Shown piece by piece: positions 16,016 to 62,924 of a stretch of 64,000 nucleotides of DNA. The translations under genes and the position numbers were made by a program. The notes below the pieces were generated by a model that was given only the letters and a program-made list of their open reading frames with translations, was not told the DNA's origin and did not search any database. Location of the stretch: assembly GCA_029834535.1 (NCBI GenBank), contig JAQMWT010000159.1, positions 24,656 to 88,655 on the forward strand, in the 5' to 3' direction. The stretch's first letter is position 1, and each line of letters starts with the position of its first letter. The stretch comes from Chrysophaeum taylorii. Lineage: Eukaryota; Sar; Pelagophyceae; Pelagomonadales; Pelagomonadaceae.

Positions 16016-16096
16016 CTTTGACGATGGATGGTTGGTTGGTTGTGTTTGACCCAAGCCGACCTTCATTACCCTCGCCTTTTCCCAACAATGGGCTGG

Positions 16097-18215: not shown

Positions 18216-18217
18216 TG

Positions 18218-32130: not shown

Positions 32131-32149
32131 AATGTCCGGCTCGCGCGCC

Positions 32150-32480: not shown

Positions 32481-32577
32481 ACGCTCGCGCGCTTACCTGA
32501 GCCTTACCCTCATTCGGTAAAGTGTCACCCTTCCGTATTCAGAGAAGTGATTCGAAAATGAGGAAGGTCAATAAGGA

Positions 32578-33171: not shown

Positions 33172-33436
33172 GTGAACTTACTGGGACCAGGTGAACTTAC
33201 AGGGGTTTTTAGAGTAAACGCAAAGGTTAGCGGTGTGTGCGGATCGAAGCGCCTTAGATTGGCGGGGGAAAGAGCGACGAGCTCAAAGGAGAGTGAGTGG
33301 GTGTGAGCACGAGTGGGTTTACGCCGGGTTTGAGATTGGGACGAAGTGAACAAACTGACCAGGTGAACTTACTGGGACGAGGTGAACTTACTAGGATTAG
33401 AGATTTGGACTAGGTGAACTTACTGGCCTGCACTTG

Positions 33437-33524
33437 TTAGTTAGACTGATAAGGATGATAAGGATGATCCTCGTTGTGGCAAAAGGTAGGGCAAGGGAGT
33501 AGATAGAAAAAGTGCTCGGTTGGT
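33437..33524 (+). promoter_or_regulatory. Short gap between foldback element and giant ORF
   Basis: These 88 bases are all that separate the element tip from the giant ORF's ATG. They include a perfect direct repeat, GATAAGGAT twice, at 33448-33465. No TATA box is evident. If the promoter is proximal, part of it must lie within the mobile element. Confidence 0.3.
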
Positions 33525-36500
33525 ATGAGCCGCGGCGATATGGGCCGCGCGTCATCGTTCGACGACTCGTCCGGATGGTCGGACTCGTCGTACGCCTCGA
33601 GCACCAACGGCGAGGAGGAGGAGGAGCTCGAGACTATCGCCCCAGACCACTTTCGATCATCCGTGATGCGGCGCGCGTTGGGGGGTGTCGTTGTCCCTGA
33701 GGAGGAAGAGTCACCCGAAGATTCGCCCGTTGAGGAGTCGTCCGTTCTCTTCGACGCGCTTCGCGCGGCCGAGTTGCGCCAGGACTCGACCGCCTTCTGG
33801 GAGAGCACCTGGGACAGCGATGAGTCGGGGGAAATAGAAACCGATCTCTGGAACATGGGTCGAAGTATTTTTTTCTCTCGCTCGCGCCGCGAGCTCGCGC
33901 TGCCAAAGGAGGTGGCCGTCGCGGGTTCGACGCCGGAGAACCCCGCTAATCCCGCGGCGCACCTGGCTCATCGCGCCTCCCCCCGCGAATCGCAGTTTCT
34001 TGAAGCACCCGACGCGAGCCCTTCCCTCGAACCACTTCCCGACGAAAGATCTCGGTATTACGCGGACGAATCGGCCGAACGAACACCTCCGGAGTCTGAT
34101 GAGCCGTCCAGAAGAGCGGAACAGCCTCCAGACCCGTGCGATTTGAGCGCGTCGTCGCCACCTCTCGAGCACCCCCCGAAGCAGTCGTCGCCCAAACCGC
34201 GCCGATCGCTTCCGCTCGTCGCCCGCTCTACGCTTCTCGGTCGCCACTCTTCGGATCCAGCGCGACGGTCGACGGCGAGGGCACCCCCCGAGCAGCAACC
34301 TCGGCAGCAGCCAGGAGGAACGCCCGTTGCGCCGCCTTCCTCTCCTCGAGAATCTCGAAACGCCACCGCCGCGAGCTCGACGTTACGGGCGAGTAGTCGA
34401 GCCGAGTCCGAGTCCTCGACGGCTGCTGCCCAATTGACGCCAAAAAATCGGCGCTCGCTCGCCCAACGAATAGTCCCTGCCCGCACGACGCTCCTTGCTC
34501 GCCACGCTCCGACCTCAGATCGGGATCCAGCGCGACGTTCGACGTCGAGCTCGTCTCGGAAGCGGTTAGCACCGACGAGCAATCCATCAGCACGAGCGAC
34601 GCCCGTTGCCCCGCCGTCCTCTCCTCGAGACTCTGTTGTTGCTGCCGCAAACGCGAGCGTTGTCGCTGATGAGCAGGCGGGTGCGGCGCCGACCAAACTT
34701 GTGTCAACATCACTAGCGAGCCCGCCCGCATCGTCGACGCCGAACGAGTCGACGGCGAGGAGCTCTTCTTTTTCGAGGGCACCGCCCGAGGCGCGAGGGC
34801 GTCGAGATTCCCCAGCAACACACTCCACACCCGTCGTGCCGCCGTCCTCTCCTCGAGAATCTGCGTACGAGAGCACCGCTGATAATGAGCAGACGGGCGT
34901 GGTGCCGACCAAACCCGTGCCGACGTCGCCGGCGACCTCGACCAAACAACCCGTGCCGCCAACGTCGCCAGCGACCTCGACCCCCAAACCCTGCGTGCCG
35001 CCAACGTCGCCAGCGAGACCGTCTCCGGCGTCATTGTCAGCTAACGAGCAGCAGAACCCGAAACAACGACGCTCGCTTGCCCAGCGAATAATCCCGGCAC
35101 GCACGACACTCCTTTCTCGTCACTCTCCGACTTCAGATCGGGATCCAGCACGACGGCCGACGTCGACCGCGAGCCCGTCGTCGCGGGCGCTCGAGCATAA
35201 AGCGCGGAGCGTTCCAACAACGCCCGTACACGCGACGCCCGTCGCGCCGCCTTCCTCTCCTCGAGAATCTTCAAACGCGAGCGCCGCTGATGATGAGCAG
35301 GTTGCGCCGACCAAACCCGTGCCAACGTCATTGGCGAGCCCGGACGAGTCGTCGACAGCTTATTACGAGCAGCAGCAGCAACAGACCCCGAAAGAACGGC
35401 GCTCGCTCGCCCAACGAATAATCCCAGCCCGCACGACGCTTATTGCTCGCCAAACTCCGACCTCGGATCGGGATCCAGCGCGACAGCCGACGTCGCCCGC
35501 CAGCCATTCCCGGGTACCAAAGAAACAACTACAGAGCGATCCATCACCCGTGCCCGCGACGCCCGTTTCGCCGCCTGCACCACCTCCTCGAGACTCTGCA
35601 AACACCAGCGACGTGCAGACAGGAGCACTGTTGGCCAAACCTATGCCAACATCGCCATCGAGCTCTCCCGGGTCGTCGTCGATAACCAACGAACAGACCC
35701 TGAAAGAACGGCGCTCGTTCGCCCAACGAATAATCCCGGCTCGCACGACGCTGATTGCTCGCCACTCTCCGACTTCGGATCAGCCAGCGCGAAAGCAGCC
35801 AACGTCGCCGGCCAGGGTATCCAAGCAGCCAGGGCAGCGCGATCGATCACCCATACCTGCGACGTTCGTTGCGCCGCCTCCCTCTCGTCGAGACTCTGCA
35901 AACGCGAGCGCCGACGAGCAGACGGGAGCACGGCCGACCAGCAGACCGACGGCAACGTTTCCGGCGAGCTCTCCCGTGTCGTCGTCGACAGCTAACGAGC
36001 AGCAGACCCCGAAACAACGACGTTCGCTCGCCCAACGCATAATCCCGTCACGAACAACGCTTATTGCTCGCCACTCCTCGACCTCGGATAAGGCAGCGCG
36101 ACAACCAGCGTCGCCCGCCAGCCCTCCGCGGGTACCCAAGCAGCCAGGGCATCGCGATCGATCACCCGTACACGCGACGCCCGTTGCGCCGCCTCCCTCT
36201 CCTCGAGAATCTTCAAACGCGAGCGCCGCTGCTGATGAGCAAGTAGGAGCAGTGCCGACCAAACCTATGCCAACGTCACCAGCGAGCTCTCCCGCGTCGT
36301 CGACAGTAAGTGCGCTTACCCCAAAACAACGACGCACGCTCGCCCAGCGCATAATCCCGGCACGCACGACGCTCCTTTCTCGTCACTCTCCGACCTCGGA
36401 TCAGCCATCGCGACCTACGACATCGCTCGCCAGCCCTTCGCGGGTACCCAAGCACCAAGGGCAGAGCGACCCATCAGCACCCATACATGCGACACCCATT

Positions 36501-39500
36501 GCGCCGCCTCCCTCTCCTCGAGAATCTTCGAACGCGAGCGCTGGTGACGAGCAAGCAGGTGCGGTACCGACGAACCTGCGGATCGCTCAACTGGCACCAG
36601 ATCCATCGCCCGACGACACTGCGAAGCAGCATCCTTTTCGGCGGCCGTGGAGTGCCTTGCGAGGGCCATCGCGACGAATAGTGCCCGCGCACACGATTCT
36701 TACTGCTCGGTCTTCGCCCGAAATACCCTCCAAACAGCCAGTTGCCTCTCGCGAACCGGCGTCGCCTGCTACACCCAACGACCTTTCTCTTACGTCAGCA
36801 GACAAGGAGCTCTTTCAGCCGCAGAGTGCTTCGCCCGCAGTAGAGCAACCGACAGGGGCTAACTCGATGATGAGCACACGCCTCTCTCTCGTGGAACCAT
36901 CACCCTCTAAAACTGGCACCTTCGAACAGCCGGGTGCATTGCTGCCGTTGCCGGTTCCCCGTCCTTCTCTCGCAGCAAGTGACAGTGCTGACTGGCCTTC
37001 AGAGCCGCGAAGTCCGTGGCAGGTAGCCGAGGGACCCGCAGCGGCGGCACCGGTGATGAACATTCGCCCTGCTCCTGAATCATCTTCGAACACCCGCAAA
37101 AAGACCAGCTCCCACGAGCAGCCAGGCACCCCGGAGCGACCTACGAAGCCGATAGCTCTGCCTGCTGTCGCATCATCAGGCGAAAGAGCGAAGGAGCTGA
37201 GGGCGTTGAAAGGTGTCCCAGGACCAACAATGCCCGCGCGCCCTACTGCCGTTCCTCGCTCTACTTCGACGCCGCACGAACAACAAACACCACAACTTGT
37301 AGCAACACGATTGACGCAGCACCTCGAGCCCACGCGTGCATCAAGAGAGATCCCCAAGCATCAGTCACAAAGGCCACTGTTGGAAAGAGGGCTGCTGGAG
37401 GAGCCCGGAGTCATTGATTTTTCCATAGATTCGGAATCATCGGCCGCCAGTTATGGGCAACGAGACGCGGAGACGCAACCGGGGACTCCAATCCCACCGT
37501 CGCCAGGATGTCCAGACGGCGCGAACGTAGGACAGCCACGTGCGCGTTCAGGAGCACTGCAACCGATGCCACTCACACGTGTCACTCCTGTATCTCGCCC
37601 CGCATATCCTCCTGCGACTTCATCTCCTTCGAGGACGGATAAGCAGCAGCCGAATACCCCATCGAAACAATTGACTAGCCTGCCGTTGGCACCAAGAGAT
37701 AAACAAACAGCGCCTGCGAACGCAACCGAGTTGCTAGACCCCATCGTCCCCATCGTTGAACAGGATACACGGTCACCGCCAACACCGGCGCAATCAAGGA
37801 CAAGCCCTCCTGGCCTCGGCACTATGTCACCGCAAATTGATAGGTTGCCCGGTGTTACCGCGCTGCTTGGAGCTCGGTCTGCACTTGAACTCGAATCGGA
37901 GGAGCCGTTTGATCATCTCTCAAGTGTTGCGCAGCCGGTGGTCCCGGCGTCTGTCAAAGAGCCAATGTTTCGAGAGCATACTGAATCGTCAGCAACAAAA
38001 TTTGAGCAGCCGTCGAAGCCACACATTGCAGTGGGTTCGCAACGCGTAAACGTGAAACTCTCTTCTTTAACGCCACCAATAAGGCGCAGCTCTGAAGAGC
38101 CAGTGAAAACATTGCAACCACCAGCACCGTCTTCTCACAGCAATCGTGCTGCTAACTCATCGTCGAGAGATGCTCCTGGTGGTAAAGAGCTTCGCGTTGC
38201 ATCTCCGGTAACTGCTCTGTGCTCGACGATGTCATCACGCCCAACCCCAATATCTCCATCGCCGCAAGCGTCGTCAAAGGTACCCGCGCGCACGACTCCG
38301 ATTGCTCGCCCTTATTCAGCAGCAGGGTCGCCTGGCGTGCAGCTGCCGCAACAATTCTCATTGCCGCAAAAGATGCTAGCACCTGCTCAACGACCGGCAT
38401 CGTCCACCCACGCGATGCCCATCACTCGACCCCCCGGGTTTGCAGCTGACGTCGATTCCGAGCACCCTCCCGAATATGCTTTGAGTAAAGTACAGCCTGA
38501 AATCCCGGCGTCCGCGAAAGAACCAATTTTTAAACCAACGTTGTCCGAGGACGCTGATTTGTCGGCAAACACGTTTGAGCAACCGTCAATGCCGCGAAGT
38601 GATGTGGATTTGCAACCTGCTAATGTGAAATTGTCCCCTCCAGCACCTCCATTACGGCCCCGTTCCGAACAGCCAGTGGAGACGCCAATTCCGGCAGCGC
38701 CAGCTACCCCAGCTACCCCGTTCGATTGCGCCGTACCGTCTTCGTCGATTTGTGATCATGATGGAAAGCAGCCTGACGTTGGATTACCTGTAGCTTCTCG
38801 ACGGTCGACAACACCCACACGCGTGGCTCCAGTGGCTAGTCCATCGCCACAGCACCAGCTGTCGATGGTACCCGCAAGTACGCCTTACATCGCTCACCCT
38901 TTTCCGCCGCGCCCAGATGCAGAAGGACAAGGCACGCTACTGCCGCAGCAGCTTTCACCGCATCGAAGTGCGCAACGCCCACCACAGCAGAGCATGTTAC
39001 CTTCCGCTCAACGACCGACACCGCCTTCGCGCTTGACTCCTATAGCTTGCCCGCCGGGATTTCCTGCCGATGTCAAATCCAACCAGCTTTCCAAGCATCT
39101 GCTGCGTGATGCGCAGCCGAAGATCCCGGCATCTGTAAAGGAACCAACGTTTGGTGAGGACGTCGCAAGCACATTCGAGCAGCCGTCAAGGCCTCGTAGT
39201 GCTCTGGATTATCAACATGCTAACGCGAGATTTTCCTCTATGCCACCACCATTTAGCCTTGATTCCGAACAGCCAGTGGAGACGTCAAGACCGGCATCGC
39301 CAGCTATCCCGATCGATTGTCCCGCAACGTCATCGTCGATTTGTATTCGTGATGGAGAGCAGCCCCTCGTTGCATTACCGGTGGCTTCTCGGCGGTCGAC
39401 GACATCGCCACAGCAGTCGTCGATTGCACCCGCATGTCCGCCTCCCATCGCTCACCCTTCTCGGCCTCGCCCCGATGCAGAAGGACAAGGTGCGCAGCCG

Positions 39501-54500: not shown

Positions 54501-57500
54501 GGTCTTGACGCCGCGAACATCGGCAGCGCTCTTCCAAGGGATCTGCCTCCGACGACGCCGCAAGTGGTAGAAGCTGATTTCGACTCTGAAGCCCAGGGGG
54601 CGAAAGATATCGAGCCGGAAGCACCCATATGCGGCAGCATGCCGGAGCTGAAGGACGTTGTGGACGAGGTGACGAGCTCTCTCGCTTTGGGAGCGCCAGT
54701 GCACGTCGCGGCGCCGAGTGATCCGCCCTTTGATGCCGAGCCGGGTGTTGAGGAAGTTGAGCTCGCCTCTCTGGCATTCATGCCAACTGACGATCATCAA
54801 TTCGACGCTGCGGATTTCCAGAAAGAGCCAGCGCTTTTCAATCCCGATGACGCGTTGGTGGAAACCAGGCAAACTAGTTCTGGAGACTGCGATGCCGTTC
54901 TCGAGGAAGAACCCGAGGTCGTCGTCGTCGACGGCGCGCCCAGCCAACCAGCGGAAAAATCTGACTCGTTGTCGTGCCTTCCCGCACCGGCGCGAGTCGA
55001 AGAACTGAACGGTGATAAAGCATGCGACGGCCTCGGCACTTTGCCATTGGATTCTGGCGATCTAGAAACGTTGCTGCCACGCGTCTCTCCATCCCCTCGA
55101 GATCCGTTTCTTGCTGAGGTGGAAGCGGATCCAGATGACACTCTCGCGGTCGATGCAGAGCCAGAGAGAGGCGTGCTTGTGCAGGAGCCAGAAACTAGCA
55201 ATGTGCCCGATGAGTGGTGTGAGGCCACAGTCGACGCGTTGCCGTTGGCGGCTTCAGCGCCGAGTGAACCGACGTGTGAGGATTCGACGCCAATCACCGG
55301 TGATCTCGAGGGTTGCCCAGCGAGCGATGCACCGACGAAGGTGGATTGCGGCGGCGAGCCATCGCTCGACGTTGTAAATGACGAGTGCGAACCAACTCCA
55401 ACTCACGCGGCGCCGGACTTGGTCACATCGCCACGCGAGCAATCGAGCCTGGACCAAGCGGAGTCTTTGGAGCTGGAACCCGCGGCGCTTGCTTTGGCTG
55501 CAAACGCCGACGGTGACGTGACGGTTGATACGGCTGGGCTTGAAAACGAGCCTTGGCTGGGCACGGACGAAGACGCTCTGACTCCCTTCGCTGATCCGCT
55601 GGATCAGCCTGATCACGATGTCAATCCTCTAACGACACCGGAGATAGGGGCGGCAGATGTTCCTGGAGAATCGGCACCAAGGTCTCAGTGGCTACCCGAG
55701 CCTGCACCGCCGGCGAATGTCGACGTTTCCGACGACCGCCTCCTTCCAGATCTCGATGGTCTTGACGCCGCGAACATCAGCAGCGCTCTTCCAAGGGATC
55801 TGCCTCCGACGACGCCGCAAGTGGTAGAAGCTGATTTCGACTCTGAAGCCCAGGGGGCGAAAGATATCGAGCCGGAAGCACCCATATGCGGCAGCATGCC
55901 GGAGCTGAAGGACGTTGTGGACGAGGTGACGAGCTCTCTCGCTTTGGGAGCGCCAGTGCACGTCGCGGCGCCGAGTGATCCGCCCTTTGATGCCGAGCCG
56001 GGTGTTGAGGAAGTTGAGCTCGCCTCTCTGGCATTCATGCCAACTGACGATCATCAATTCGACGCTGCGGATCTCCAGAAAGAGCCAGCGCTTTTCAATC
56101 CCGATGACGCGTTGGTGGAAACCAGGCAAACTAGTTCTGGAGACTGCGATGCCGTTCTCGAGGAAGAACCCGAGGTCGTCGTCGTCGACGGCGCGCCCAG
56201 CCAACCAGCGGAAAAATCTGACTCGTTGTCGTGCCTTCCCGCACCGGCGCGAGTCGAAGAACTGAACGGTGATAAAGCATGCGACGGCCTCGGCACTTTG
56301 CCGTTGGATTCTGGCGATCTAGAAACGTTGCTGCCACGCGTCTCTCCATCCCCTCGAGATCCGTTTCTTGCTGAGGAGGAAGCGGATCCAGATGACACTC
56401 TCGCGGTCGATGCAGAGCCAGAGAGAGGCGTGCTTGTGCAGGAGCCAGAAACTAGCAATGTGCCCGATGAGTGGTGTGAGGCCACAGTCGACGCGTTGCC
56501 GTTGGCGGCTTCAGCGCCGAGTGAACCGACGTGTGAGGATTCGACGCCAATCACCGGTGATCTCGAGGGTTGCCCAGCGAGCGATGCACCGGCGAAGGTG
56601 GATTGCGGCGGCGAGCCATCGCTCGACGTTGTAAATGACGAGTGCGAACCAATTCCAACTCACGCGGTGCCGGACTTGGTCACATCGCCACGCGAGCAAT
56701 CGAGCCTGGACCAAGCGGAGTCTTTGGAGCTGGAACCCGCGGCGCTTGCTTTGGCTGCAAACGCCGACGGTGACGTGACGGTTGATACGGCTGGGCTTGA
56801 AAGCGAGCCTTGGCTGGGCACGGACGAAGACGTTCTGACTCCCTTCGCTGATCCGCTGGATCAGCCTGATCACGATGTCAATCCTCTGACGACACCGGAG
56901 ATAGGGGCGGCAGATGTTCCTGGAGAATCGGCACCAAGGTCTCAGTGGCTACCCGAGCCTGCACCGCCGGCGAATGTCGACGTTTCCGACGACCGCCTCC
57001 GTCCAGATCTCGATGGTCTTGACACCGCGAACATCGGCAGCGCTCTTCCAAGGGATCTGCCTCCGACGACGCCGCAAGTGGTAGAAGCTGATTTCGACTC
57101 TGAAGCCCAGGGGGCGAAAGATATCGAGCCGGAAGCACCCATATGCGGCAGCATGCCGGAGCTGAAGGACGTTGTGGACGAGGTGACGAGCTCTCTCGCT
57201 TTGGGAGCGCCAGTGCACGTCGCGGCGCCGAGTGATCCGCCCTTTGATGCCGAGCCGGGTGTTGAGGAAGTTGAGCTCGCCTCTCTGGCATTCATGCCAA
57301 CTGACGATCATCAATTCGACGCTGCGGATTTCCAGAAAGAGCCAGCGCTTTTCAATCCCGATGACGCGTTGGTGGAAACCAGGCAAACTAGTTCTGGAGA
57401 CTGCGATGCCGTTCTCGAGGAAGAACCCGAGGTCGTCGTCGTCGACGGCGCGCCCAGCCAACCAGCGGAAAAATCTGACTCGTTGTCGTGCCTTCCCGCA

Positions 57501-60500
57501 CCGGCGCGAGTCGAAGAACTGAACGGTGATAAAGCATGCGACGGCCTCGGCACTTTGCCATTGGATTCTGGCGATCTAGAAACGTTGCTGCCACGCGTCT
57601 CTCCATCCCCTCGAGATCCGTTTCTTGCTGAGGTGGAAGCGGATCCAGATGACACTCTCGCGGTCGATGCAGAGCCAGAGAGAGGCGTGCTTGTGCAGGA
57701 GCCAGAAACTAGCAATGTGCCCGATGAGTGGTGTGAGGCCACAGTCGACGCGTTGCCGTTGGCGGCTTCAGCGCCGAGTGAACCGACGTGTGAGGATTCG
57801 ACGCCAATCACCGGTGATCTCGAGGGTTGCCCAGCGAGCGATGCACCGACGAAGGTGGATTGCGGCGGCGAGCCATCGCTCGACGTTGTAAATGACGAGT
57901 GCGAACCAACTCCAACTCACGCGGTGCCGGACTTGGTCACATCGCCACGCGAGCAATCGAGCCTGGACCAAGCGGAGTCTTTGGAGCTGGAACCCGCGGC
58001 GCTTGCTTTGGCTGCAAACGCCGACGGTGACGTGACGGTTGATACGGCTGGGCTTGAAAGCGAGCCTTGGCTGGGCACGGACGAAGACGCTCTGACTCCC
58101 TTCGCTGATCCGCTGGATCAGCCTGATCACGATGTCAATCCTCTAACGACACCGGAGATAGGGGCGGCAGATGTTCCTGGAGAATCGGCACCAAGGTCTC
58201 AGTGGCTACCCGAGCCTGCACCGCCGGCGAATGTCGACGTTTCCGACGACCGCCTCCTTCCAGATCTCGATGGTCTTGACGCCGCGAACATCGGCAGCGC
58301 TCTTCCAAGGGATCTGCCTCCGACGACGCCGCAAGTGGTAGAAGCTGATTTCGACTCTGAAGCCCAGGGGGCGAAAGATATCGAGCCGGAAGCACCCATA
58401 TGCGGCAGCATGCCGGAGCTGAAGGACGTTGTGGACGAGGTGACGAGCTCTCTCGCTTTGGGAGCGCCAGTGCACGTCGCGGCGCCGAGTGATCCGCCCT
58501 TTGATGCCGAGCCGGGTGTTGAGGAAGTTGAGCTCGCCTCTCTGGCATTCATGCCAACTGACGATCATCAATTCGACGCTGCGGATTTCCAGAAAGAGCC
58601 AGCGCTTTTCAATCCCGATGACGCGTTGGTGGAAACCAGGCAAACTAGTTCTGGAGACTGCGATGCCGTTCTCGAGGAAGAACCCGAGGTCGTCGTCGTC
58701 GACGGCGCGCCCAGCCAACCAGCGGAAAAATCTGACTCGTTGTCGTGCCTTCCCGCACCGGCGCAAGTCGAAGAACTGGACGGTGATAAAGCATGCGACG
58801 GCCTCGGCACTTTGCCATTGGATTCTGGCGATCTAGAAACGTTGCTGCCACGCGTCTCTCCATCCCCTCGAGATCCGTTTCTTGCTGAGGTGGAAGCGGA
58901 TCCAGATGACACTCTCGCGGTCGATGCAGAGCCAGAGAGAGGCGTGCTTGTGCAGGAGCCAGAAACTAGCAATGTGCCCGATGAGTGGTGTGAGGCCACA
59001 GTCGACGCGTTGCCGTTGGCGGCTTCAGCGCCGAGTGAACCGACGTGTGAGGATTCGACGCCAATCACCGGTGATCTCGAGGGTTGCCCAGCGAGCGATG
59101 CACCGACGAAGGTGGATTGCGGCGGCGAGCCATCGCTCGACGTTGTAAATGACGAGTGCGAACCAACTCCAACTCACGCGGCGCCGGACTTGGTCACATC
59201 GCCACGCGAGCAATCGAGCCTGGACCAAGCGGAGTCTTTGGAGCTGGAACCCGCGGCGCTTGCTTTGGCTGCAAACGCCGACGGTGACGTGACGGTTGAT
59301 ACGGCTGGGCTTGAAAGCGAGCCTTGGCTGGGCACGGACGAAGACGCTCTGACTCCCTTCGCTGATCCGCTGGATCAGCCTGATCACGATGTCAATCCTC
59401 TAACGACACCGGAGATAGGGGCGGCAGATGTTCCTGGAGAATCGGCACCAAGGTCTCAGTGGCTACCCGAGCCTGCACCGCCGGCGAATGTCGACGTTTC
59501 CGACGACCGCCTCCTTCCAGATCTCGATGGTCTTGACGCCGCGAACATCAGCAGCGCTCTTCCAAGGGATCTGCCTCCGACGACGCCGCAAGTGGTAGAA
59601 GCTGATTTCGACTCTGAAGCCCAGGGGGCGAAAGATATCGAGCCGGAAGCACCCATATGCGGCAGCATGCCGGAGCTGAAGGACGTTGTGGACGAGGTGA
59701 CGAGCTCTCTCGCTTTGGGAGCGCCAGTGCACGTCGCGGCGCCGAGTGATCCGCCCTTTGATGCCGAGCCGGGTGTTGAGGAAGTTGAGCTCGCCTCTCT
59801 GGCATTCATGCCAACTGACGATCATCAATTCGACGCTGCGGATTTCCAGAAAGAGCCAGCGCTTTTCAATCCCGATGACGCGTTGGTGGAAACCAGGCAA
59901 ACTAGTTCTGGAGACTGCGATGCCGTTCTCGAGGAAGAACCCGAGGTCGTCGTCGTCGACGGCGCGCCCAGCCAACCAGCGGAAAAATCTGACTCGTTGT
60001 CGTGCCTTCCCGCACCGGCGCAAGTCGAAGAACTGAACGGTGATAAAGCATGCGACGGCCTCGGCACTTTGCCATTGGATTCTGGCGATCTAGAAACGTT
60101 GCTGCCACGCGTCTCTCCATCCCCTCGAGATCCGTTTCTTGCTGAGGTGGAAGCGGATCCAGATGACACTCTCGCGGTCGATGCAGAGCCAGAGAGAGGC
60201 GTGCTTGTGCAGGAGCCAGAAACTAGCAATGTGCCCGATGAGTGGTGTGAGGCCACAGTCGACGCGTTGCCGTTGGCGGCTTCAGCGCCGAGTGAACCGA
60301 CGTGTGAGGATTCGACGCCAATCACCGGTGATCTCGAGGGTTGCCCAGCGAGCGATGCACCGACGAAGGTGGATTGCGGCGGCGAGCCATCGCTCGACGT
60401 TGTAAATGACGAGTGCGAACCAACTCCAACTCACGCGGCGCCGGACTTGGTCACATCGCCACGCGAGCAATCGAGCCTGGACCAAGCGGAGTCTTTGGAG

Positions 60501-62924
60501 CTGGAACCCGCGGCGCTTGCTTTGGCTGCAAACGCCGACGGTGACGTGACGGTTGATACGGCTGGGCTTGAAAACGAGCCTTGGCTGGGCACGGACGAAG
60601 ACGCTCTGACTCCCTTCGCTGATCCGCTGGATCAGCCTGATCACGATGTCAATCCTCTAACGACACCGGAGATAGGGGCGGCAGATGTTCCTGGAGAATC
60701 GGCACCAAGGTCTCAGTGGCTACCCGAGCCTGCACCGCCGGCGAATGTCGACGTTTCCGACGACCGCCTCCTTCCAGATCTCGATGGTCTTGACGCCGCG
60801 AACATCGGCAGCGCTCTTCCAAGCGATCTGCCTCCGACGACGCCGCAAGTGGTAGAAGCTGATTTCGACTCTGAAGCCCAGGGGGCGAAAGATATCGAGC
60901 CGGAAGCACCCATATGCGGCAGCATGCCGGAGCTGAAGGACGTTGTGGACGAGGTGACGAGTTCTCTCGCTTTGGGAGCGCCAGTGCACGTCGCGGCGCC
61001 GAGTGATCCGCCCTTTGATGCCGGGCCGGGTGTTGAGGAAGTTGAGCTCGCCTCTCTGGCATTCATGCCAACTGACGATCATCAATTCGACGCTGCGGAT
61101 TTCCAGAAAGAGCCAGCGCTTTTCAATCCCGATGACGCGTTGGTGGAAACCAGGCAAACTAGTTCTGGAGACTGCGATGCCGTTCTCGAGGAAGAACCCG
61201 AGGTCGTCGTCGTCGACGGCGCGCCCAGCCAACCAGCGAAAAAATCTGACTCGTTGTCGCGCCTTCCCGCACCGGCGCAAGTCGAAGAACTGAACGGTGA
61301 TAAAGCACGCGACGGCCTCGGCACTTTGCCATTGGATTCTGGCGATCTAGAAACGTTGCTGCCACGCGTCTCTCCATCCCCTCGAGATCCATTTCTTGCT
61401 GAGGTGGAAGCGGATCCAGATGACACTCTCGCGGTCGATGCAGAGCCAGAGAGAGGCGTGCTTGTGCAGGAGCCAGAAACTAGCAATGTGCCCGATGAGT
61501 GGTGTGAGGCCACAGTCGACGCGTTGCCGTTGGCGGCTTCAGCGCCGAGTGAACCGACGTGTGAGGATTCGACGCCAATCACCGGTGATCTCGAGGGTTG
61601 CCCAGCGAGCGATGCACCGACGAAGGTGGATTGCGGCGGCGAGCCATCGCTCGACGTTGTAAATGACGAGTGCGAACCAACTCCAACTCACGCGGCGCCG
61701 GACTTGGTCACATCGCCACGCGAGCAATCGAGCCTGGACCAAGCGGAGTCTTTGGAGCTGGAACCCGCGGCGCTTGCTTTGGCTGCAAACGCCGACGGTG
61801 ACGTGACGGTTGATACGGCTGGGCTTGAAAACGAGCCTTGGCTGGGCACGGACGAAGACGCTCTGACCCCCTTCGCTGATCCGCTGGATCAGCCTGATCA
61901 CGATGTCAATCCTCTAACGACACCGGAGATAGGGGCGGCAGATGTTCCTGGAGAATCGGCACCAAGGTCTCAGTGGCTACCCGAGCCTGCACCGCCGGCG
62001 AATGTCGACGTTTCCGACGACCGCCTCCTTCCAGATCTCGATGGTCTTGACGCCGCGAACATCAGCAGCGCTCTTCCAAGCGATCTGCCTCCGACGACGC
62101 CGCAAGTGGTAGAAGCTGATTTCGACTCTGAAGCCCAGGGGGCGAAAGATATCGAGCCGGAAGCACCCATATGCGGCAGCATGCCGGAGCTGAAGGACGT
62201 TGTGGACGAGGTGACGAGTTCTCTCGCTTTGGGAGCGCCAGTGCACGTCGCGGCGCCGAGTGATCCGCCCTTTGATGCCGAGCCGGGTGTTGAGGAAGTT
62301 GAGCTCGCCTCTCTGGCATTCATGCCAACTGACGATCATCAATTCGACGCTGCGGATTTCCAGAAAGAGCCAGCGCTTTTCAATCCCGATGACGCGTTGG
62401 TGGAAACCAGGCAAACTAGTTCTGGAGACTGCGATGCCGTTCTCGAGGAAGAACCCGAGGTCGTCGTCGTCGACGGCGCGCCCAGCCAACCAGCGGAAAA
62501 ATCTGACTCGTTGTCGTGCCTTCCCGCACCGGCGCAAGTCGAAGAACTGGACGGTGATAAAGCATGCGACGGCCTCGGCACTTTGCCATTGGATTCTGGC
62601 GATCTAGAAACGTTGCTGCCACGCGTCTCTCCATCCCCTCGAGATCCGTTTCTTGCTGAGGTGGAAGCGGATCCAGATGACACTCTCGCGGTCGATGCAG
62701 AGCCAGAGAGAGGCGTGCTTGTGCAGGAGCCAGAAACTAGCAATGTGCCCGATGAGTGGTGTGAGGCCACAGTCGACGCGTTGCCGTTGGCGGCTTCAGC
62801 GCCGAGTGAACCGACGTGTGAGGATTCGACGCCAATCACCGGTGATCTCGAGGGTTGCCCAGCGAGCGATGCACCGACGAAGGTGGATTGCCGCGGCGAA
62901 CCATCGCTCGACGTTGGAGGATGA
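33525..62924 (+). CDS. Giant repetitive protein, 9,799 codons, intronless, function unknown
   Basis: One frame runs 29.4 kb from ATG 33525 without a stop. The N-terminus (M-S-R-G-D-M-G-R-A-S-S-F-D-D-S-S-G-W-S-D) has no signal peptide, and I see no membrane span or enzyme domain. In order: acidic/Ser head (1-220); a Pro/Ser-rich basic array with Q-R-R-S-L-A-Q-R-I-I-P-A-R-T-T every ~105 residues (~220-1080); a linker; a second Pro/Ser-rich array of ~150-205-residue units with P-P-G-F (~1430-2990); a more unique segment (~2990-3830); ten full and one partial 214-residue acidic units (~3830-6108); then nearly nine 419-residue acidic units to the end. The predicted mass is about 1 MDa. It is probably disordered, with the C-terminal two thirds strongly acidic. 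A scaffold, spring or phosphoprotein role is only a guess. The stop is doubtful because a damaged further repeat follows. Confidence 0.85.
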   Translation: MSRGDMGRASSFDDSSGWSDSSYASSTNGEEEEELETIAPDHFRSSVMRRALGGVVVPEEEESPEDSPVEESSVLFDALRAAELRQDSTAFWESTWDSDESGEIETDLWNMGRSIFFSRSRRELALPKEVAVAGSTPENPANPAAHLAHRASPRESQFLEAPDASPSLEPLPDERSRYYADESAERTPPESDEPSRRAEQPPDPCDLSASSPPLEHPPKQSSPKPRRSLPLVARSTLLGRHSSDPARRSTARAPPEQQPRQQPGGTPVAPPSSPRESRNATAASSTLRASSRAESESSTAAAQLTPKNRRSLAQRIVPARTTLLARHAPTSDRDPARRSTSSSSRKRLAPTSNPSARATPVAPPSSPRDSVVAAANASVVADEQAGAAPTKLVSTSLASPPASSTPNESTARSSSFSRAPPEARGRRDSPATHSTPVVPPSSPRESAYESTADNEQTGVVPTKPVPTSPATSTKQPVPPTSPATSTPKPCVPPTSPARPSPASLSANEQQNPKQRRSLAQRIIPARTTLLSRHSPTSDRDPARRPTSTASPSSRALEHKARSVPTTPVHATPVAPPSSPRESSNASAADDEQVAPTKPVPTSLASPDESSTAYYEQQQQQTPKERRSLAQRIIPARTTLIARQTPTSDRDPARQPTSPASHSRVPKKQLQSDPSPVPATPVSPPAPPPRDSANTSDVQTGALLAKPMPTSPSSSPGSSSITNEQTLKERRSFAQRIIPARTTLIARHSPTSDQPARKQPTSPARVSKQPGQRDRSPIPATFVAPPPSRRDSANASADEQTGARPTSRPTATFPASSPVSSSTANEQQTPKQRRSLAQRIIPSRTTLIARHSSTSDKAARQPASPASPPRVPKQPGHRDRSPVHATPVAPPPSPRESSNASAAADEQVGAVPTKPMPTSPASSPASSTVSALTPKQRRTLAQRIIPARTTLLSRHSPTSDQPSRPTTSLASPSRVPKHQGQSDPSAPIHATPIAPPPSPRESSNASAGDEQAGAVPTNLRIAQLAPDPSPDDTAKQHPFRRPWSALRGPSRRIVPAHTILTARSSPEIPSKQPVASREPASPATPNDLSLTSADKELFQPQSASPAVEQPTGANSMMSTRLSLVEPSPSKTGTFEQPGALLPLPVPRPSLAASDSADWPSEPRSPWQVAEGPAAAAPVMNIRPAPESSSNTRKKTSSHEQPGTPERPTKPIALPAVASSGERAKELRALKGVPGPTMPARPTAVPRSTSTPHEQQTPQLVATRLTQHLEPTRASREIPKHQSQRPLLERGLLEEPGVIDFSIDSESSAASYGQRDAETQPGTPIPPSPGCPDGANVGQPRARSGALQPMPLTRVTPVSRPAYPPATSSPSRTDKQQPNTPSKQLTSLPLAPRDKQTAPANATELLDPIVPIVEQDTRSPPTPAQSRTSPPGLGTMSPQIDRLPGVTALLGARSALELESEEPFDHLSSVAQPVVPASVKEPMFREHTESSATKFEQPSKPHIAVGSQRVNVKLSSLTPPIRRSSEEPVKTLQPPAPSSHSNRAANSSSRDAPGGKELRVASPVTALCSTMSSRPTPISPSPQASSKVPARTTPIARPYSAAGSPGVQLPQQFSLPQKMLAPAQRPASSTHAMPITRPPGFAADVDSEHPPEYALSKVQPEIPASAKEPIFKPTLSEDADLSANTFEQPSMPRSDVDLQPANVKLSPPAPPLRPRSEQPVETPIPAAPATPATPFDCAVPSSSICDHDGKQPDVGLPVASRRSTTPTRVAPVASPSPQHQLSMVPASTPYIAHPFPPRPDAEGQGTLLPQQLSPHRSAQRPPQQSMLPSAQRPTPPSRLTPIACPPGFPADVKSNQLSKHLLRDAQPKIPASVKEPTFGEDVASTFEQPSRPRSALDYQHANARFSSMPPPFSLDSEQPVETSRPASPAIPIDCPATSSSICIRDGEQPLVALPVASRRSTTSPQQSSIAPACPPPIAHPSRPRPDAEGQGAQPLQQSSWHRSAQRPPQQGVSLSAQRPTSPACSTPIAPPPGFVAEVDTGQHSAYVPSGAQRAVLASGMEPAFHEHAHSSANTFEEQSITCSALDSQLTDRTFSATTQSLSRGSEQPAETSRRVAPERFSSAPASTAFIARPSPRRPNAMHQRVQSSQQHSTQQGGQFSPRKSTLPAAKRPTSPGRAISVSLMPGLVSEVDAVQSSDHLARDAQPDVPASAQQPIFCEYADSAGSTFEQTPLPRSVLASQPARPGNVSLSPTGPRLSHSTNQPVEPSRQAATTARTDRLALSTSTIHVHDGRHPPGATALDPLRSTMPTLSRTPATTAATAHNSPRQPDAGRSSMQPSPQLLPHQDGKLPPRQSMIRAAQRPTLLGRSIPIPHMPGLAAEVSLSQPSDHLPSDTQPALTASGQEPALGELSYFSANTVEKSSERRGTPVAHPAPLGRASLAFTTPSLSGMLVKPVHASGSLEPAAPIDDAVPASSIYGHDGKQSLVASPVVTPVQSETPTCVAQITRPSLQQSSKAPASTAPFVRPSPRRSGAGCPPRPQQLPPHQMAQYPPQRSTLLDSLQATSPPHTIFIARPPGFAVEVDSDQPSEHLRRDAQPGVPAPSREPTFREYADVATNTLEQLSKPRIGLDSQQAPHGNSSTVPRTSRTKQPLETSRPSAPEILIDHETLSSTIYASDGKQPHTASPVAPLRPKTPTQVAPISRPSPQQLSKIPAREVSVDHRSPSSPEARRQDVQSSQQLPPHESAQGSPPSKTLPAVPRPTPPARSSRIVQPPGLTTEIYSAQRTDHVLGEIKPAIPVSVKQASLSEHAASTVEQPTKPSSVLTLRRVQPANANHSSTGSVLSYSSEQPVEASRPPAPAIQIDCAAVSSIDAFDGKRPRGVSPMAPERSMAPTRVAPIACPSPQQQTRVPMITASTSRSSSCRPDATQPDAQVLQQFPMQERSLSAAKRPTSPVRSIPIAPPPGFAQHSDHLQNEAQQAVPASKILPTFCERAGPSEDTVESPKLQSASALLQSERLDTSATSISLSSAKLATGGERAAVASHDFEPRVESPPVTGYPMDRAVPASSADTHDEEQPFNMSQPSAPQSMTPTRAAPASSTDTHDGKQPFTVSNRSDPRSTTPRRVTPLGKASPRISQRLPRVRARAAHRAPFRHEAGQTVWKLPPVVQVTLSDREPHPYERGRRSIPSLAPRLKKGETRLLQIDDHRDASRTRLTTPRLSPVIETQLRSAAVDEHDGLAALAVPPRSIENGVTHEPAVEWTDTSVPLSHKLSSLVHEATVNDEPTILLSSEAVSAMLPPQAVIVASPPIPPDVSLRAAQHTTTQAPRPPTIHRCGAFPAFVSPSKWLEELDAAPNMLIPSSFVPLNPESSNEPHMSFRDEAHAAAAVLRSGSSPVATTALSDPLPVTTDLCGVLQRLTVRTMTEKTASFDSILLQREPVFAPVEHVESSLFVRELQSFTCGAALGNEPHFICADEHRTASPGQAAAADMHVAYPQCPSEQLFRTSIYCDLDHDALPLSKASSFDPDASFVLSAPATSLTYFQQEPRLVVKDESPLRFFTLSTPSHDLALWDVPDVPPKADLPSEPAKSLRNARSPPQHPTSVVLQQVDQGPDIESLAPLYVGALRGLLPDVAVSARLLMQRGDVDPLETLSSETQPKHPPTSGDELSLRSIEDEKTNTRTADFPTILVTPHEPILNLALESTQEPLASLPNAMQPLSIDAPDDALDTEGYEKEPCLSTNEDDLTPFTDPLDLPNHGVILISTPGIVSHDFAEESALRSPRVSGPVPPASVAVDYYDTPDLEGKSAIEKRSPFLSDLTPSLPRVAHVTDESEAQEAKEIKPTTPVYSDEPVQTEIDIAPSEGSADHAGCLVSDAPRSVDCSSEPLFEVVYDEFISAPSHPTSEFVNVPHEPSRVDQAESLELEPNALASAANADNNVELDSLDVEREPCLGTEEGARTPLTDSLDVPVHDVHLTATPEISSADVAGESAPRSRELSELAPPSSVDVTDDHFVPNLESLGAVGIDVAFPSDLPPRRPDVADNDLESEAQEAKEIKPTTPVCNDEPVQTEIDIAPSEGSADHAGCLVSDAPRSVDCSSEPLFEVVYDEFISAPSHPTSEFVNAPHEPSRVDQAESLELEPNALASAANADNNVELDPLDVEREPCLGTEEDARTPLTDSLDVPVHDVHLTATPEISSADVAGESAPRSRELSELAPPSSVDVTDDHFVPNLESLGAVGIDVAFPSDLPPRRPDVADNDLESEAQEAKEIKPTTPVCNDEPVQTEIDIAPSEGSADHAGCLVSDAPRSVDCSSEPLFEVVYDEFISAPSHPTSEFVNAPHEPSRVDQAESLELEPNALASAANADNNVELDPLDVEREPCLGTEEDARTPLTDSLDVPVHDVHLTATPEISSADVAGESAPRSRELSELAPPSSVDVTDDHFVPNLESLGAVGIDVAFPSDLPPRRPDVADNDLESEAQEAKEIKPTTPVCNDEPVQTEIDIAPSEGSADHAGCLVSDAPRSVDCSSEPLFEVVYDEFISAPSHPTSEFVNAPHEPSRVDQAESLELEPNALASAANADNNVELDPLDVEREPCLGTEEDARTPLTDSLDVPVHDVHLTATPEISSADVAGESAPRSRELSELAPPSSVDVTDDHFVPNLESLGAVGIDVAFPSDLPPRRPDVADNDLESEAQEAKEIKPTTPVCNDEPVQTEIDIAPSEGSADHAGCLVSDAPRSVDCSSEPLFEVVYDEFISAPSHPTSEFVNAPHEPSRVDQAESLELEPNALASAANADNNVELDPLDVEREPCLGTEEDARTPLTDSLDVPVHDVHLTATPEISSADVAGESAPRSRELSELAPPSSVDVTDDHFVPNLESLGAVGIDVAFPSDLPPRRPDVADNDLESEAQEAKEIKPTTPVCNDEPVQTEIDIAPSEGSADHAGCLVSDAPRSVDCSSEPLFEVVYDEFISAPSHPTSEFVNAPHEPSRVDQAESLELEPNALASAANADNNVELDPLDVEREPCLGTEEDARTPLTDSLDVPVHDVHLTATPEISSADVAGESAPRSRELSELAPPSSVDVTDDHFVPNLESLGAVGIDVAFPSDLPPRRPDVADNDLESEAQEAKEIKPTTPVCNDEPVQTEIDIAPSEGSADHAGCLVSDAPRSVDCSSEPLFEVVYDEFISAPSHPTSEFVNAPHEPSRVDQAESLELEPNALASAANADNNVELDPLDVEREPCLGTEEDARTPLTDSLDVPVHDVHLTATPEISSADVAGESAPRSRELSELAPPSSVDVTDDHFVPNLESLGAVGIDVAFPSDLPPRRPDVADNDLESEAQEAKEIKPTTPVCNDEPVQTEIDIAPSEGSADHAGCLVSDAPRSVDCSSEPLFEVVYDEFISAPSHPTSEFVNAPHEPSRVDQAESLELEPNALASAANADNNVELDPLDVEREPCLGTEEDARTPLTDSLDVPVHDVHLTATPEISSADVAGESAPRSRELSELAPPSSVDVTDDHFVPNLESLGAVGIDVAFPSDLPPRRPDVADNDLESEAQEAKEIKPTTPVCNDEPVQTEIDIAPSEGSADHAGCLVSDAPRSVDCSSEPLFEVVYDEFISAPSHPTSEFVNAPHEPSRVDQAESLELEPNALASAANADNNVELDPLDVEREPCLGTEEDARTPLTDSLDVPVHDVHLTATPEISSADVAGESAPRSRELSELAPPSSVDVTDDHFVPNLESLGAVGIDVAFPSDLPPRRPDVADNDLESEAQEAKEIKPTTPVCNDEPVQTEIDIAPSEGSADHAGCLVSDAPRSVDCSSEPLFEVVYDEFISAPSHPTSEFVNAPHEPSRVDQAESLELEPNALASAANADNNVELDPLDVEREPCLGTEEDARTPLTDSLDVPVHDVHLTATPEISSADVAGESAPRSRELSELAPPSSVDVTDDHFVPNLESLGAVGIDVAFPSDLPPRRPDVADNDLESEAQEAKEIKPTTPVCNDEPVQTEIDIAPSEGSADHAGCLVSDAPRSVDCSSEPLFEVVYDEFISAPSHPTSEFVNAPHEPSRVDQAESLELEPNALASAANADNNVELDSLDVEREPCLGTEEDARTPLTDSLDVPVHDVNPLTKPEIGAADVPGESAPRSQWLPEPVPPANVDVSDDRLLPDLDGLDTANIGSALPSDLPPTTPQVVEADFDSEAHGAKDIEPEAPICGSMPELKDVVDEVTSSLALGAPVHVAAPGDPPFDAEPGVEEVELASLAFMPTDDHQFDAADFQKEPALFNPDDALVETRQTSSGDCDAVLEEEPEVVVVDGAPSQPAEKSDSLSCLPAPARVEELNGDKACDGLGTLPLDSGDLETLLPRVSPSPRDPFLAEEEADPDDTLAVDAEPERGVLVQEPETSNVPDEWCEATVDALPLAASAPSEPTCEDSTPITGDLEGCPASDAPTKVDCGGEPSLDVVNDECEPTPTHAAPDLVTSPREQSSLDQAESLELEPAALALAANADGDVTVDTAGPENEPWLGTDEDALTPFADPLDQPDHDVNPLTTPEIGAADVPGESAPRSQWLPEPAPPANVDVSDDRLLPDLDGLDAANIGSALPSDLPPTTPQVVEADFDSEAQGAKDIEPEAPICGSMPELKDVVDEVTSSLALGAPVHVAAPSDPPFDAEPGVEEVELASLAFMPTDDHQFDAADFQKEPALFNPDDALVETRQTSSGDCDAVLEEEPEVVVVDGAPSQPAEKSDSLSCLPAPARVEELNGDKACDGLGTLPLDSGDLETLLPRVSPSPRDPFLAEVEADPDDTLAVDAEPERGVLVQEPETSNVPDEWCEATVDALPLAASAPSEPTCEDSTPITGDLEGCPASDAPTKVDCGGEPSLDVVNDECEPTPTHAAPDLVTSPREQSSLDQAESLELEPAALALAANADGDVTVDTAGLESEPWLGTDEDALTPFADPLDQPDHDVNPLTTPEIGAADVPGESAPRSQWLPEPAPPANVDVSDDRLLPDLDGLDAANIGSALPRDLPPTTPQVVEADFDSEAQGAKDIEPEAPICGSMPELKDVVDEVTSSLALGAPVHVAAPSDPPFDAEPGVEEVELASLAFMPTDDHQFDAADFQKEPALFNPDDALVETRQTSSGDCDAVLEEEPEVVVVDGAPSQPAEKSDSLSCLPAPARVEELNGDKACDGLGTLPLDSGDLETLLPRVSPSPRDPFLAEVEADPDDTLAVDAEPERGVLVQEPETSNVPDEWCEATVDALPLAASAPSEPTCEDSTPITGDLEGCPASDAPTKVDCGGEPSLDVVNDECEPTPTHAAPDLVTSPREQSSLDQAESLELEPAALALAANADGDVTVDTAGLENEPWLGTDEDALTPFADPLDQPDHDVNPLTTPEIGAADVPGESAPRSQWLPEPAPPANVDVSDDRLLPDLDGLDAANISSALPRDLPPTTPQVVEADFDSEAQGAKDIEPEAPICGSMPELKDVVDEVTSSLALGAPVHVAAPSDPPFDAEPGVEEVELASLAFMPTDDHQFDAADLQKEPALFNPDDALVETRQTSSGDCDAVLEEEPEVVVVDGAPSQPAEKSDSLSCLPAPARVEELNGDKACDGLGTLPLDSGDLETLLPRVSPSPRDPFLAEEEADPDDTLAVDAEPERGVLVQEPETSNVPDEWCEATVDALPLAASAPSEPTCEDSTPITGDLEGCPASDAPAKVDCGGEPSLDVVNDECEPIPTHAVPDLVTSPREQSSLDQAESLELEPAALALAANADGDVTVDTAGLESEPWLGTDEDVLTPFADPLDQPDHDVNPLTTPEIGAADVPGESAPRSQWLPEPAPPANVDVSDDRLRPDLDGLDTANIGSALPRDLPPTTPQVVEADFDSEAQGAKDIEPEAPICGSMPELKDVVDEVTSSLALGAPVHVAAPSDPPFDAEPGVEEVELASLAFMPTDDHQFDAADFQKEPALFNPDDALVETRQTSSGDCDAVLEEEPEVVVVDGAPSQPAEKSDSLSCLPAPARVEELNGDKACDGLGTLPLDSGDLETLLPRVSPSPRDPFLAEVEADPDDTLAVDAEPERGVLVQEPETSNVPDEWCEATVDALPLAASAPSEPTCEDSTPITGDLEGCPASDAPTKVDCGGEPSLDVVNDECEPTPTHAVPDLVTSPREQSSLDQAESLELEPAALALAANADGDVTVDTAGLESEPWLGTDEDALTPFADPLDQPDHDVNPLTTPEIGAADVPGESAPRSQWLPEPAPPANVDVSDDRLLPDLDGLDAANIGSALPRDLPPTTPQVVEADFDSEAQGAKDIEPEAPICGSMPELKDVVDEVTSSLALGAPVHVAAPSDPPFDAEPGVEEVELASLAFMPTDDHQFDAADFQKEPALFNPDDALVETRQTSSGDCDAVLEEEPEVVVVDGAPSQPAEKSDSLSCLPAPAQVEELDGDKACDGLGTLPLDSGDLETLLPRVSPSPRDPFLAEVEADPDDTLAVDAEPERGVLVQEPETSNVPDEWCEATVDALPLAASAPSEPTCEDSTPITGDLEGCPASDAPTKVDCGGEPSLDVVNDECEPTPTHAAPDLVTSPREQSSLDQAESLELEPAALALAANADGDVTVDTAGLESEPWLGTDEDALTPFADPLDQPDHDVNPLTTPEIGAADVPGESAPRSQWLPEPAPPANVDVSDDRLLPDLDGLDAANISSALPRDLPPTTPQVVEADFDSEAQGAKDIEPEAPICGSMPELKDVVDEVTSSLALGAPVHVAAPSDPPFDAEPGVEEVELASLAFMPTDDHQFDAADFQKEPALFNPDDALVETRQTSSGDCDAVLEEEPEVVVVDGAPSQPAEKSDSLSCLPAPAQVEELNGDKACDGLGTLPLDSGDLETLLPRVSPSPRDPFLAEVEADPDDTLAVDAEPERGVLVQEPETSNVPDEWCEATVDALPLAASAPSEPTCEDSTPITGDLEGCPASDAPTKVDCGGEPSLDVVNDECEPTPTHAAPDLVTSPREQSSLDQAESLELEPAALALAANADGDVTVDTAGLENEPWLGTDEDALTPFADPLDQPDHDVNPLTTPEIGAADVPGESAPRSQWLPEPAPPANVDVSDDRLLPDLDGLDAANIGSALPSDLPPTTPQVVEADFDSEAQGAKDIEPEAPICGSMPELKDVVDEVTSSLALGAPVHVAAPSDPPFDAGPGVEEVELASLAFMPTDDHQFDAADFQKEPALFNPDDALVETRQTSSGDCDAVLEEEPEVVVVDGAPSQPAKKSDSLSRLPAPAQVEELNGDKARDGLGTLPLDSGDLETLLPRVSPSPRDPFLAEVEADPDDTLAVDAEPERGVLVQEPETSNVPDEWCEATVDALPLAASAPSEPTCEDSTPITGDLEGCPASDAPTKVDCGGEPSLDVVNDECEPTPTHAAPDLVTSPREQSSLDQAESLELEPAALALAANADGDVTVDTAGLENEPWLGTDEDALTPFADPLDQPDHDVNPLTTPEIGAADVPGESAPRSQWLPEPAPPANVDVSDDRLLPDLDGLDAANISSALPSDLPPTTPQVVEADFDSEAQGAKDIEPEAPICGSMPELKDVVDEVTSSLALGAPVHVAAPSDPPFDAEPGVEEVELASLAFMPTDDHQFDAADFQKEPALFNPDDALVETRQTSSGDCDAVLEEEPEVVVVDGAPSQPAEKSDSLSCLPAPAQVEELDGDKACDGLGTLPLDSGDLETLLPRVSPSPRDPFLAEVEADPDDTLAVDAEPERGVLVQEPETSNVPDEWCEATVDALPLAASAPSEPTCEDSTPITGDLEGCPASDAPTKVDCRGEPSLDVGG
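34190..36760 (+). repeat. Array A in giant ORF: ~8 units with RRSLAQRIIPARTT motif
   Basis: A basic motif of the form R-R-S/T-L/F-A-Q-R-I-I-P-A-R-T-T-L, then R-H-S-P-T-S-D, recurs near 34196 (variant), 34450, 35068, 35400, 35710, 36015, 36330 and 36675 (variant). Spacing is mostly 305-335 bp. Between motifs are P-V-A-P-P-S-S-P-R-E-S and P-T-K-P-x-P-T-S. R-R-S-L fits an R-R-x-S phosphorylation consensus, and S-P/T-P pairs are dense. Confidence 0.8.
37800..42480 (+). repeat. Array B in giant ORF: ~9 diverged ~150-205-residue units
   Basis: The recurrent order is S-E-Q-P-V-E-T-S-R, H-D-G-K-Q-P, P-x-R-V-A-P-I, A-Q-R-P-T-S-P, then P-P-G-F/L and A-Q-P-x-x-P-A-S-x-K-E-P. P-P-G-F-like anchors lie near 37810, 38436, 39053, 39610, 40070, 40640, 41248, 41842 and 42408. 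Units are only partly alike, so this array is older than C and D. Confidence 0.75.
45011..51849 (+). repeat. Array C in giant ORF: 642-bp units, ten full and one partial, mostly identical
   Basis: Units begin at the codons for S-E-A-Q-E-A-K-E-I-K at 45011, 45653, 46295, 46937, 47579, 48221, 48863, 49505, 50147, 50789 and 51431 (partial). Units 2-10 translate identically and I see no base differences between them. Unit 1 has Y-S-D for C-N-D, V-P-H for A-P-H, S for P in L-D-S-L, and G for D in E-G-A-R. A strongly diverged ancestor-like copy precedes at about 44680-45010. Confidence 0.92.
51850..62924 (+). repeat. Array D in giant ORF: 1257-bp units, nearly nine copies
   Basis: Units begin at N-P-L-T-x-P-E-I-G-A-A-D at 51850, 53107, 54364, 55621, 56878, 58135, 59392, 60649 and 61906, an exact 1257-bp period. 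Copies differ by scattered substitutions only (for example S-D-L versus R-D-L, E-E-A versus V-E-A, N-I-G versus N-I-S). Each 419-residue unit contains a 214-residue stretch related to the array C unit plus about 205 extra residues starting S-M-P-E-L-K-D-V-V-D-E-V. Confidence 0.92.

Follow-up and report, generated by a model that had tools for sequence, protein, structure and literature searches.

Does the very long open frame in this stretch of Chrysophaeum taylorii DNA encode a protein, and where would its gene end? The window, by which we mean the whole stretch of 64,000 nucleotides analysed, is C159:24656-88655 of a 70.8-Mb assembly in 697 contigs. A frame scan of the assembled letters confirmed the intronless reading frame reported by the first-pass annotation: from the ATG at 33525 to the stop at 62924 there are 9,799 codons and no internal stop, and an upstream in-frame stop lies at 33504, 21 bases 5' of the ATG. 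As assembled, the product has a mass of 1.03 MDa, a net charge of -1115 and a composition of 13.2% P, 11.5% A, 10.7% S, 9.0% D and 8.7% E, in agreement with the acidic, repeat-built protein that had been described (Table 1).

Table 1. Parts of the giant locus, its continuation and its paralog. Positions without a contig name are those of the window.
Feature	Location	Strand	Remarks
Transposable-element-like copy	31198..33439	.	Two inverted arms, 31198-32149 and 32578-33439; 85 bases lie between it and the ATG
N-terminal head, aa 1-125	33525..33899	+	Without a hydrophobic signal stretch; conserved in the C38 paralog
Array A, aa 302-1032	34428..36620	+	Six anchored basic Pro/Ser-rich repeats; core K-x-RRSLAQRIIPARTTLIARHSPTSD
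Block W-ALRGPSRR, aa 1036-1100	36630..36824	+	Collinear with the C38 paralog
Block, aa 1330-1395	37512..37709	+	Last stretch clearly collinear with the C38 paralog
Array B, aa 1636-3036	38430..42632	+	Old, diverged Pro/Ser-rich repeats; eight anchored units
First diverged copies of the ~142-residue acidic module	44214..45110	+	Profile search
Array C	45111..51530	+	Ten 642-bp units (214 aa), nine of ten identical
Junction unit	51531..52200	+	C-D intermediate; matches D at 84.5% across 671 bp
Array D	52201..62916	+	Eight full 1257-bp units and a partial one, in frame; continues on C399
Chimeric, indel-rich contig end	62917..64000	+	Holds the frameshift creating the stop at 62924
Array E, 1101-bp units	C399 frame, module pairs from ~residues 2462, 2829, 3196, 3563		Profile search
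Further diverged modules	C399 frame, to residue 4,585		3' of array E
C-terminal block	C399 frame		13 IRTNF motifs 28-49 residues apart; followed by the tail
Diverged paralog	C38:44235-47585		1,107 residues from the first Met; head and collinear blocks

The claim that this openness is beyond chance was upheld. In the low-copy 5' 11.4 kb (33525-44973), the frame has no stop in 3,816 codons, compared with ~101 expected from the base frequencies by codon position and 77-147 found in the other five frames. Similarly, the post-array part of contig C399, which we assign to the same gene below, has no stop in 3,458 codons, compared with ~73 expected and 58-180 in the other frames. The head, in turn, appears constrained: between the giant gene and a diverged paralog on contig C38, dS is 1.28 and dN 0.27 (pS 0.61, pN 0.22; 91 codons), and 45 of the 86 differences fall at third positions. 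The absence of the expected stops, together with the constraint on the head, indicates that the giant frame is a real protein-coding gene, held open by selection.

Further comparisons were made among the repeat units. The 26-residue core of array A (all pairs of six copies) has a pS of 0.33 and a pN of 0.09, giving a pN/pS of 0.26; for the A units the ratio is 0.66 (mean pS 0.35), and for the array B block it is 0.67 (mean pS 0.57). Between a C and a D unit, dS is 0.66 and dN 0.30 (dN/dS 0.46). These values point to purifying selection on the head, on the A core, and between C and D units; the comparison of synonymous and non-synonymous changes between diverged units, proposed beforehand as a check, left the gene standing. 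Variation among the recent D units appears weakly constrained, with 13 synonymous and 27 non-synonymous variants and a pN/pS of 0.68 (40 variants in 16 units, 4 of the 20 full units having been left out for indels). Adjacent E units gave 1.62 and 0.75 on few changes, and a diverged E pair gave 0.85.

Could the locus nevertheless be idle, that is, functionless and hardly or not expressed, growing by tandem duplication and open because open units were amplified? The near-neutral variation in recent D and E units would fit such a locus, as would the low third-position GC. Measured in-frame in three 5' segments, the latter is 0.62 in array A and 0.48 in array B and in the stretch after B, compared with 0.80 in reference frames taken mechanically from eight tubulin/FtsZ-family loci, one of which yields 66 codons only; the codon usage of the giant gene is no closer to these frames than that of other reading frames is. 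Furthermore, a non-coding 1372-bp array ~5.7 kb upstream shows that arrays here also grow without coding. Against this stand the stops missing from both the 5' and the 3' low-copy regions and the constraint on the head, on the A core and in the C-D divergence, and we consider an idle locus unlikely.

The 3' end of the coding gene is not where the assembled frame stops. Contig C159 has 88,655 bases, and its last base is the last base of the window. The unit that follows 62,917 is 91.6% identical to D with 29 gapped positions, compared with none in the eight preceding full units. Between 62,960 and 63,249, the tail contains 86-bp and 64-bp exact pieces of C399 post-array sequence (from 17547 and 17797), which are absent from every D unit examined, and D pieces lie before, between and after both. 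Such a chimeric tail is the pattern expected when reads from separate parts of a single array are merged into a consensus; the contig end is an assembly artefact, and the gene does not end with the stop at 62924.

C399 starts inside the 1257-bp array, on the same strand as the array of C159. Its D array runs from base 1 (noisy to ~930), with 12 full units from 1752, to ~17,475, a span of ~13.9 units compared with ~9.4 on C159, and its frame is whole from 10712 to a stop at 27856. Four of the 12 full units carry frame-breaking one-base indels, at three places that are all in short G runs, and these are probably consensus errors. The same array, the same strand, the open frame and the C399 flank pieces in the C159 tail all argue that one gene was cut by the assembler inside its longest tandem array and that its 3' part is C399:1-27856. 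The earlier product of ~1 MDa ending at 62924 is thus to be replaced by a longer one, since the gene goes on into C399 and that stop follows a frameshift in the noisy tail.

Taken at face value, the assembled letters do read as a stop at 62924, and the gene, or this allele, could encode a truncated protein of 9,799 residues. That stop, however, sits just inside the indel-rich contig end in which C399 pieces alternate with D pieces, and the array runs on for ~13.9 units in the same orientation on C399, which makes truncation extremely improbable. A second, closely related giant gene on C399 is also very unlikely. The variant patterns of the 8 C159 and 12 C399 D units are not collinear, so the two contigs hold mostly different copies, as two genes would; different copies are equally expected from two parts of one long array, however, and the C159 tail includes C399 flank. 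Moreover, the head occurs in the genome only at the giant locus and, diverged, in the single paralog on C38, the C-terminal 950 residues matched only themselves (five candidates scored), and matches to the E region were confined to C399 and the chimeric C159 tail (five matches, eight candidates scored).

For the single gene continued on C399, full overlap of the two arrays gives ~6,225 + 13.9 x 419 + 3,460 = ~15,500 codons, and no overlap (9.4 + 13.9 units) gives ~19,450 codons, or more if a gap exists. The protein would consequently have ~15,500-19,500 or more residues and a mass of 1.6-2.0 MDa. We hold this overall anatomy with high confidence. It illustrates that gene models at contig ends inside tandem arrays can be halved, and contig breaks of this kind may often hide long genes in microalgae.

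Is the gene composed of four repeat systems, as the first-pass annotation had it? All four proposed periods stood. Array A repeats at ~312 bp, its anchors being spaced by 103-110 residues except for a single interval of 206, array C at 642 bp and array D at 1257 bp. The eight units of array B were delimited by anchors, which lie 153-207 residues apart; one further unit, recognised by eye, precedes the array, and a blastp self-comparison of array B gave no off-diagonal rows. The separateness of C and D did not stand, since these arrays, and array E beyond them, hold copies of one module.

This module was traced with a profile built from four E-region modules only, with a strict inclusion threshold and with shuffled decoys kept apart from the model; a looser iterated profile was dropped because shuffled decoys had entered it. 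The best of 20 local shuffles reached E 0.011, and scores called untrained are those obtained before any training on the targets. Untrained, in the first profile round, aa 3564-3712 matched at E 9.1e-10. The copies in array D matched untrained at 2.1e-10 and 6.4e-9, those in array C at 3.2e-4 and 1e-5, and four 3' stretches at 4.2e-10 to 1.7e-7. Two further copies in the D unit gave untrained values of 8.9e-4 and 0.011, the latter no better than the best decoy. The second early copy (aa 3756-3902) rose from 0.28 untrained to 1.9e-28 trained, a rise that proves little by itself. After training, 55 long matches (at least 80 profile positions) were found, 30 and 25 on the two frames. These results indicate that a single acidic module of ~142 residues underlies arrays C, D and E and was amplified anew in units of three different lengths. 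The junction unit has a dS of 0.31 to D and 0.20 to C. Some B units bear a weak resemblance to one part of the module, with a best untrained score of 0.0021 and scores that overlap in part with those of the decoys, and a common origin of array B and the acidic module is possible.

Expansion by duplication was borne out by near-identical units in arrays C, D and E, and the C-terminal block includes one 237-bp pair 99.6% alike. The proposed gradient from old units at the 5' end to young ones at the 3' end was not. Array B looks older than A from its mean pS (0.57 compared with 0.35), and array C looks younger than D, as nine of ten C units are identical and any two of the 20 full D units are separated by 0-22 differences. 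Furthermore, 3' of array D, C399 has both near-identical units (E and the 237-bp pair) and strongly diverged ones. Growth at the 3' side fared no better: array E, older modules, the C-terminal block and the tail all lie beyond D, and amplification is internal and has occurred at several places, namely in C, D, E and the one C-terminal pair, all amid older sequence. At 45753-51530, nine consecutive 642-bp units show zero differences, the product of a very recent burst, of strong homogenisation, or of the assembler copying one consensus.

The paralog on C38 offers a view of how the gene may have begun. Its head region is 38% identical to that of the giant gene over positions 10-308 of the first 313 residues (E 9.7e-15), and its parts follow in the same order: the head, one A-type motif (by eye), the W-ALRGPSRR block and the block at aa 1335. 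It has a near-neutral charge and a recent internal duplication of its own of ~210 residues (by eye); no match to the acidic module was found in it, and neither arrays C, D and E nor the C-terminal block are present. Most simply, the giant descends from an ancestor of ~1,100 codons: in one lineage, A multiplied and the remaining parts were added; alternatively, the later parts were lost in the paralog. On the simplest reading, the locus shows a protein growing, with the short paralog likely picturing the start and old arrays lying beside identical new ones.

C38 holds other long frames. A 589-codon frame (C38:42493-44259, minus strand) lies directly after the paralog, and part of it, by eye, looks like a cyclic-nucleotide-binding protein. 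A frame of 2,128 codons is open at C38:10656-17039 (plus strand; first 60 residues read), and opposite-strand frames contain repeated short Arg/Leu/Ser-rich units. The genome may be rich in long repeat frames.

What could such a chain do? Its charge is distributed unevenly. Per 100 residues, array A carries +6.0, array B +0.8 and the C-terminal block +3.5, and the acidic segments carry -12.8 (first modules), -17.8 (C), -20.0 (D), -13.6 (E) and -14.1 (3' modules); summed over the pieces, the whole product has a net charge of ~-1,800 to -2,700. On the charge-hydropathy line, 6 of the 14 segments plot as disordered (head, A, first modules, C, D and, barely, 1030-1420) and 8 do not (B, 3100-3560, the E region, the 3' modules, 4590-4880, the C-terminal block, the tail and the paralog), a mixed result that makes a partly folded or collapsed chain possible. 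By simple hydropathy, neither a signal peptide nor an anchor was detected: the best 19-residue mean is 0.26 among the N-terminal 60 residues, 1.0 among the C-terminal 60 and 1.63 anywhere in the giant.

Walls and mucins typically contain long repeats rich in Pro, Ser and Ala, and the repeats of the giant could accordingly place it in the wall, in mucilage or on the surface, with a signal peptide on an unseen upstream exon. The in-frame stop 21 bases before the ATG and the transposon-like copy just beyond it speak against such an exon. Furthermore, the paralog begins at almost the same residue and has no hydrophobic stretch either (best 19-residue hydropathy of its first 60 residues, 0.14), and the giant has no hydrophobic C-terminal anchor. 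A secreted product is improbable in our judgement.

It is more plausible that the product would be intracellular and disordered at least in part, built of a basic N-terminal part with repeated motifs, an acidic spacer and a mildly basic C-terminal part with the IRTNF motifs. Through the repeated basic motifs at both ends, the protein might bind partners or anionic surfaces. The acidic stretch between the ends would serve as a spacer; the count of tandem units would fix its length, and unequal exchange would alter it. The constrained basic motifs at one end, the repeated motifs at the other and the long acidic middle are what suggest, tentatively, a multivalent tether or scaffold. Could size and charge be all that matters, and the ends not? 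An intracellular counter-ion or calcium-binding polyanion, serving as a buffer or associated with mineral, would account for a net charge in the thousands; the strongest constraint, however, lies in the head and the basic A core and not in the acidic units, and we regard a mere polyanion as unlikely too. The best explanation of the whole, a single intronless nuclear gene encoding an intracellular tether, has in our estimate a little under an even chance of being right.

Around the giant gene, the transposable-element-like copy has ends that read AGTGCAGGCCAGTAAGTTCACC, and 36 of the 48 genome matches listed (best 40 of 2,940 candidates scored) stop at 33436-33441. Its right arm presumably encodes, by eye, a Pif1/Helitron-like helicase remnant. 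The element is a neighbour, outside the giant gene unless it supplies the promoter. A further copy of the element arm lies at 5673-6591 and is 82-86% identical to those that precede the giant gene. The tandem array at 19308-27865 consists of six units of ~1372-1387 bp and a partial one, the full units matching the first at 96-99%, with indels. Every one of the six frames of the first unit is interrupted by stops; the array as a whole does not code for protein and is separate from the giant gene. Pfam gave no hits on 10 frames upstream of the giant gene (E <= 0.1) and none above the cut-off on 3 frames downstream on C399; Rfam gave no matches in the window to 4,227 families at gathering scores, and an rRNA pattern search gave none. 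Elsewhere in the genome, all eight tubulin/FtsZ-family matches lie each in one open frame of 420-562 codons, and one of them reads by eye as FtsZ. Contig C697 (103.6 kb) carries a RuBisCO large-chain frame, which we take by eye to be of the red type, with rbcS, cbbX, ycf39, chlI and clpC beside it. The RuBisCO and tubulin/FtsZ-family frames support a eukaryotic alga that has a plastid.

The earlier statement that no known domain is visible agrees with our searches. Pfam recognised no domain in four pieces of the window frame (E <= 1) or two pieces of the C399 frame (E <= 0.5); the scores for Ribul_P_3_epim, Prok_Ub, KdpD and PTS_EIIA_1 were repeat-summed partial hits to short parts of the profiles, with no stretch significant alone. 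Among PDB sequences, no match up to E 1 was found for either end piece, the N-terminal 1,100 and the C-terminal 950 residues; viral contigs contained no relative of the N-terminal or C-terminal pieces, and prokaryote genome contigs contained none of the C-terminal piece. A giant polyketide synthase was rejected because Pfam found no PKS domains. A transposable-element protein was rejected likewise, as Pfam found no TE domain and the head occurs at two loci, the C-terminus at one and the E region at this locus. A titin-like Ig/FN3 giant was rejected on the absence of Pfam domains and of PDB matches to both terminal pieces.

If the protein is made, a chain of ~2 MDa with ~-2,500 charges raises questions of translation, of transport and of the partners that it would tether. 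If it is a giant tether, its length would differ between strains, and the central arrays would still be changing. It is conceivable, though we put it well below an even chance, that this is one of the longest single-exon genes of eukaryotes, encoding a basic-polyanion-basic tether of ~18,000-20,000 residues, built up from a progenitor of ~1,100 codons through nested tandem duplications and varying in length between strains.

How does it compare with known systems? Our literature search found no giant repetitive or disordered proteins for algae and protists, nor any paper that names this assembly. PKZILLA-1 and -2 of Prymnesium parvum are reported to have masses of 4.7 and 3.2 MDa (PMC12194139); they are, like the giant, megadalton proteins of a microalga, but they are described there as multidomain polyketide synthases, whereas the giant gene has no recognised catalytic domain. 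The surface proteins Giant1-5 of Apilactobacillus kunkeei are similarly very long (PMC12863079), but they are bacterial and extracellular, with 3,000-8,000 residues. Tandem repeats of Borgs are reported to be recent and fast-changing and to create disordered protein regions (PMC9879509); those repeats belong to archaeal extrachromosomal elements, whereas the giant gene has kilobase-scale units in a eukaryote gene. Set against the Pfam, PDB, viral and prokaryote collections, the product would be a giant repetitive spacer protein, whereas the known giant proteins of algae, the PKZILLAs, are enzymes. Titin PEVK and other entropic spacers place a charged, Pro-rich segment of adjustable length between ends that anchor it, PEVK being Lys-rich. 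The giant may work like the PEVK spacer, but with acidic residues in place of the lysines.
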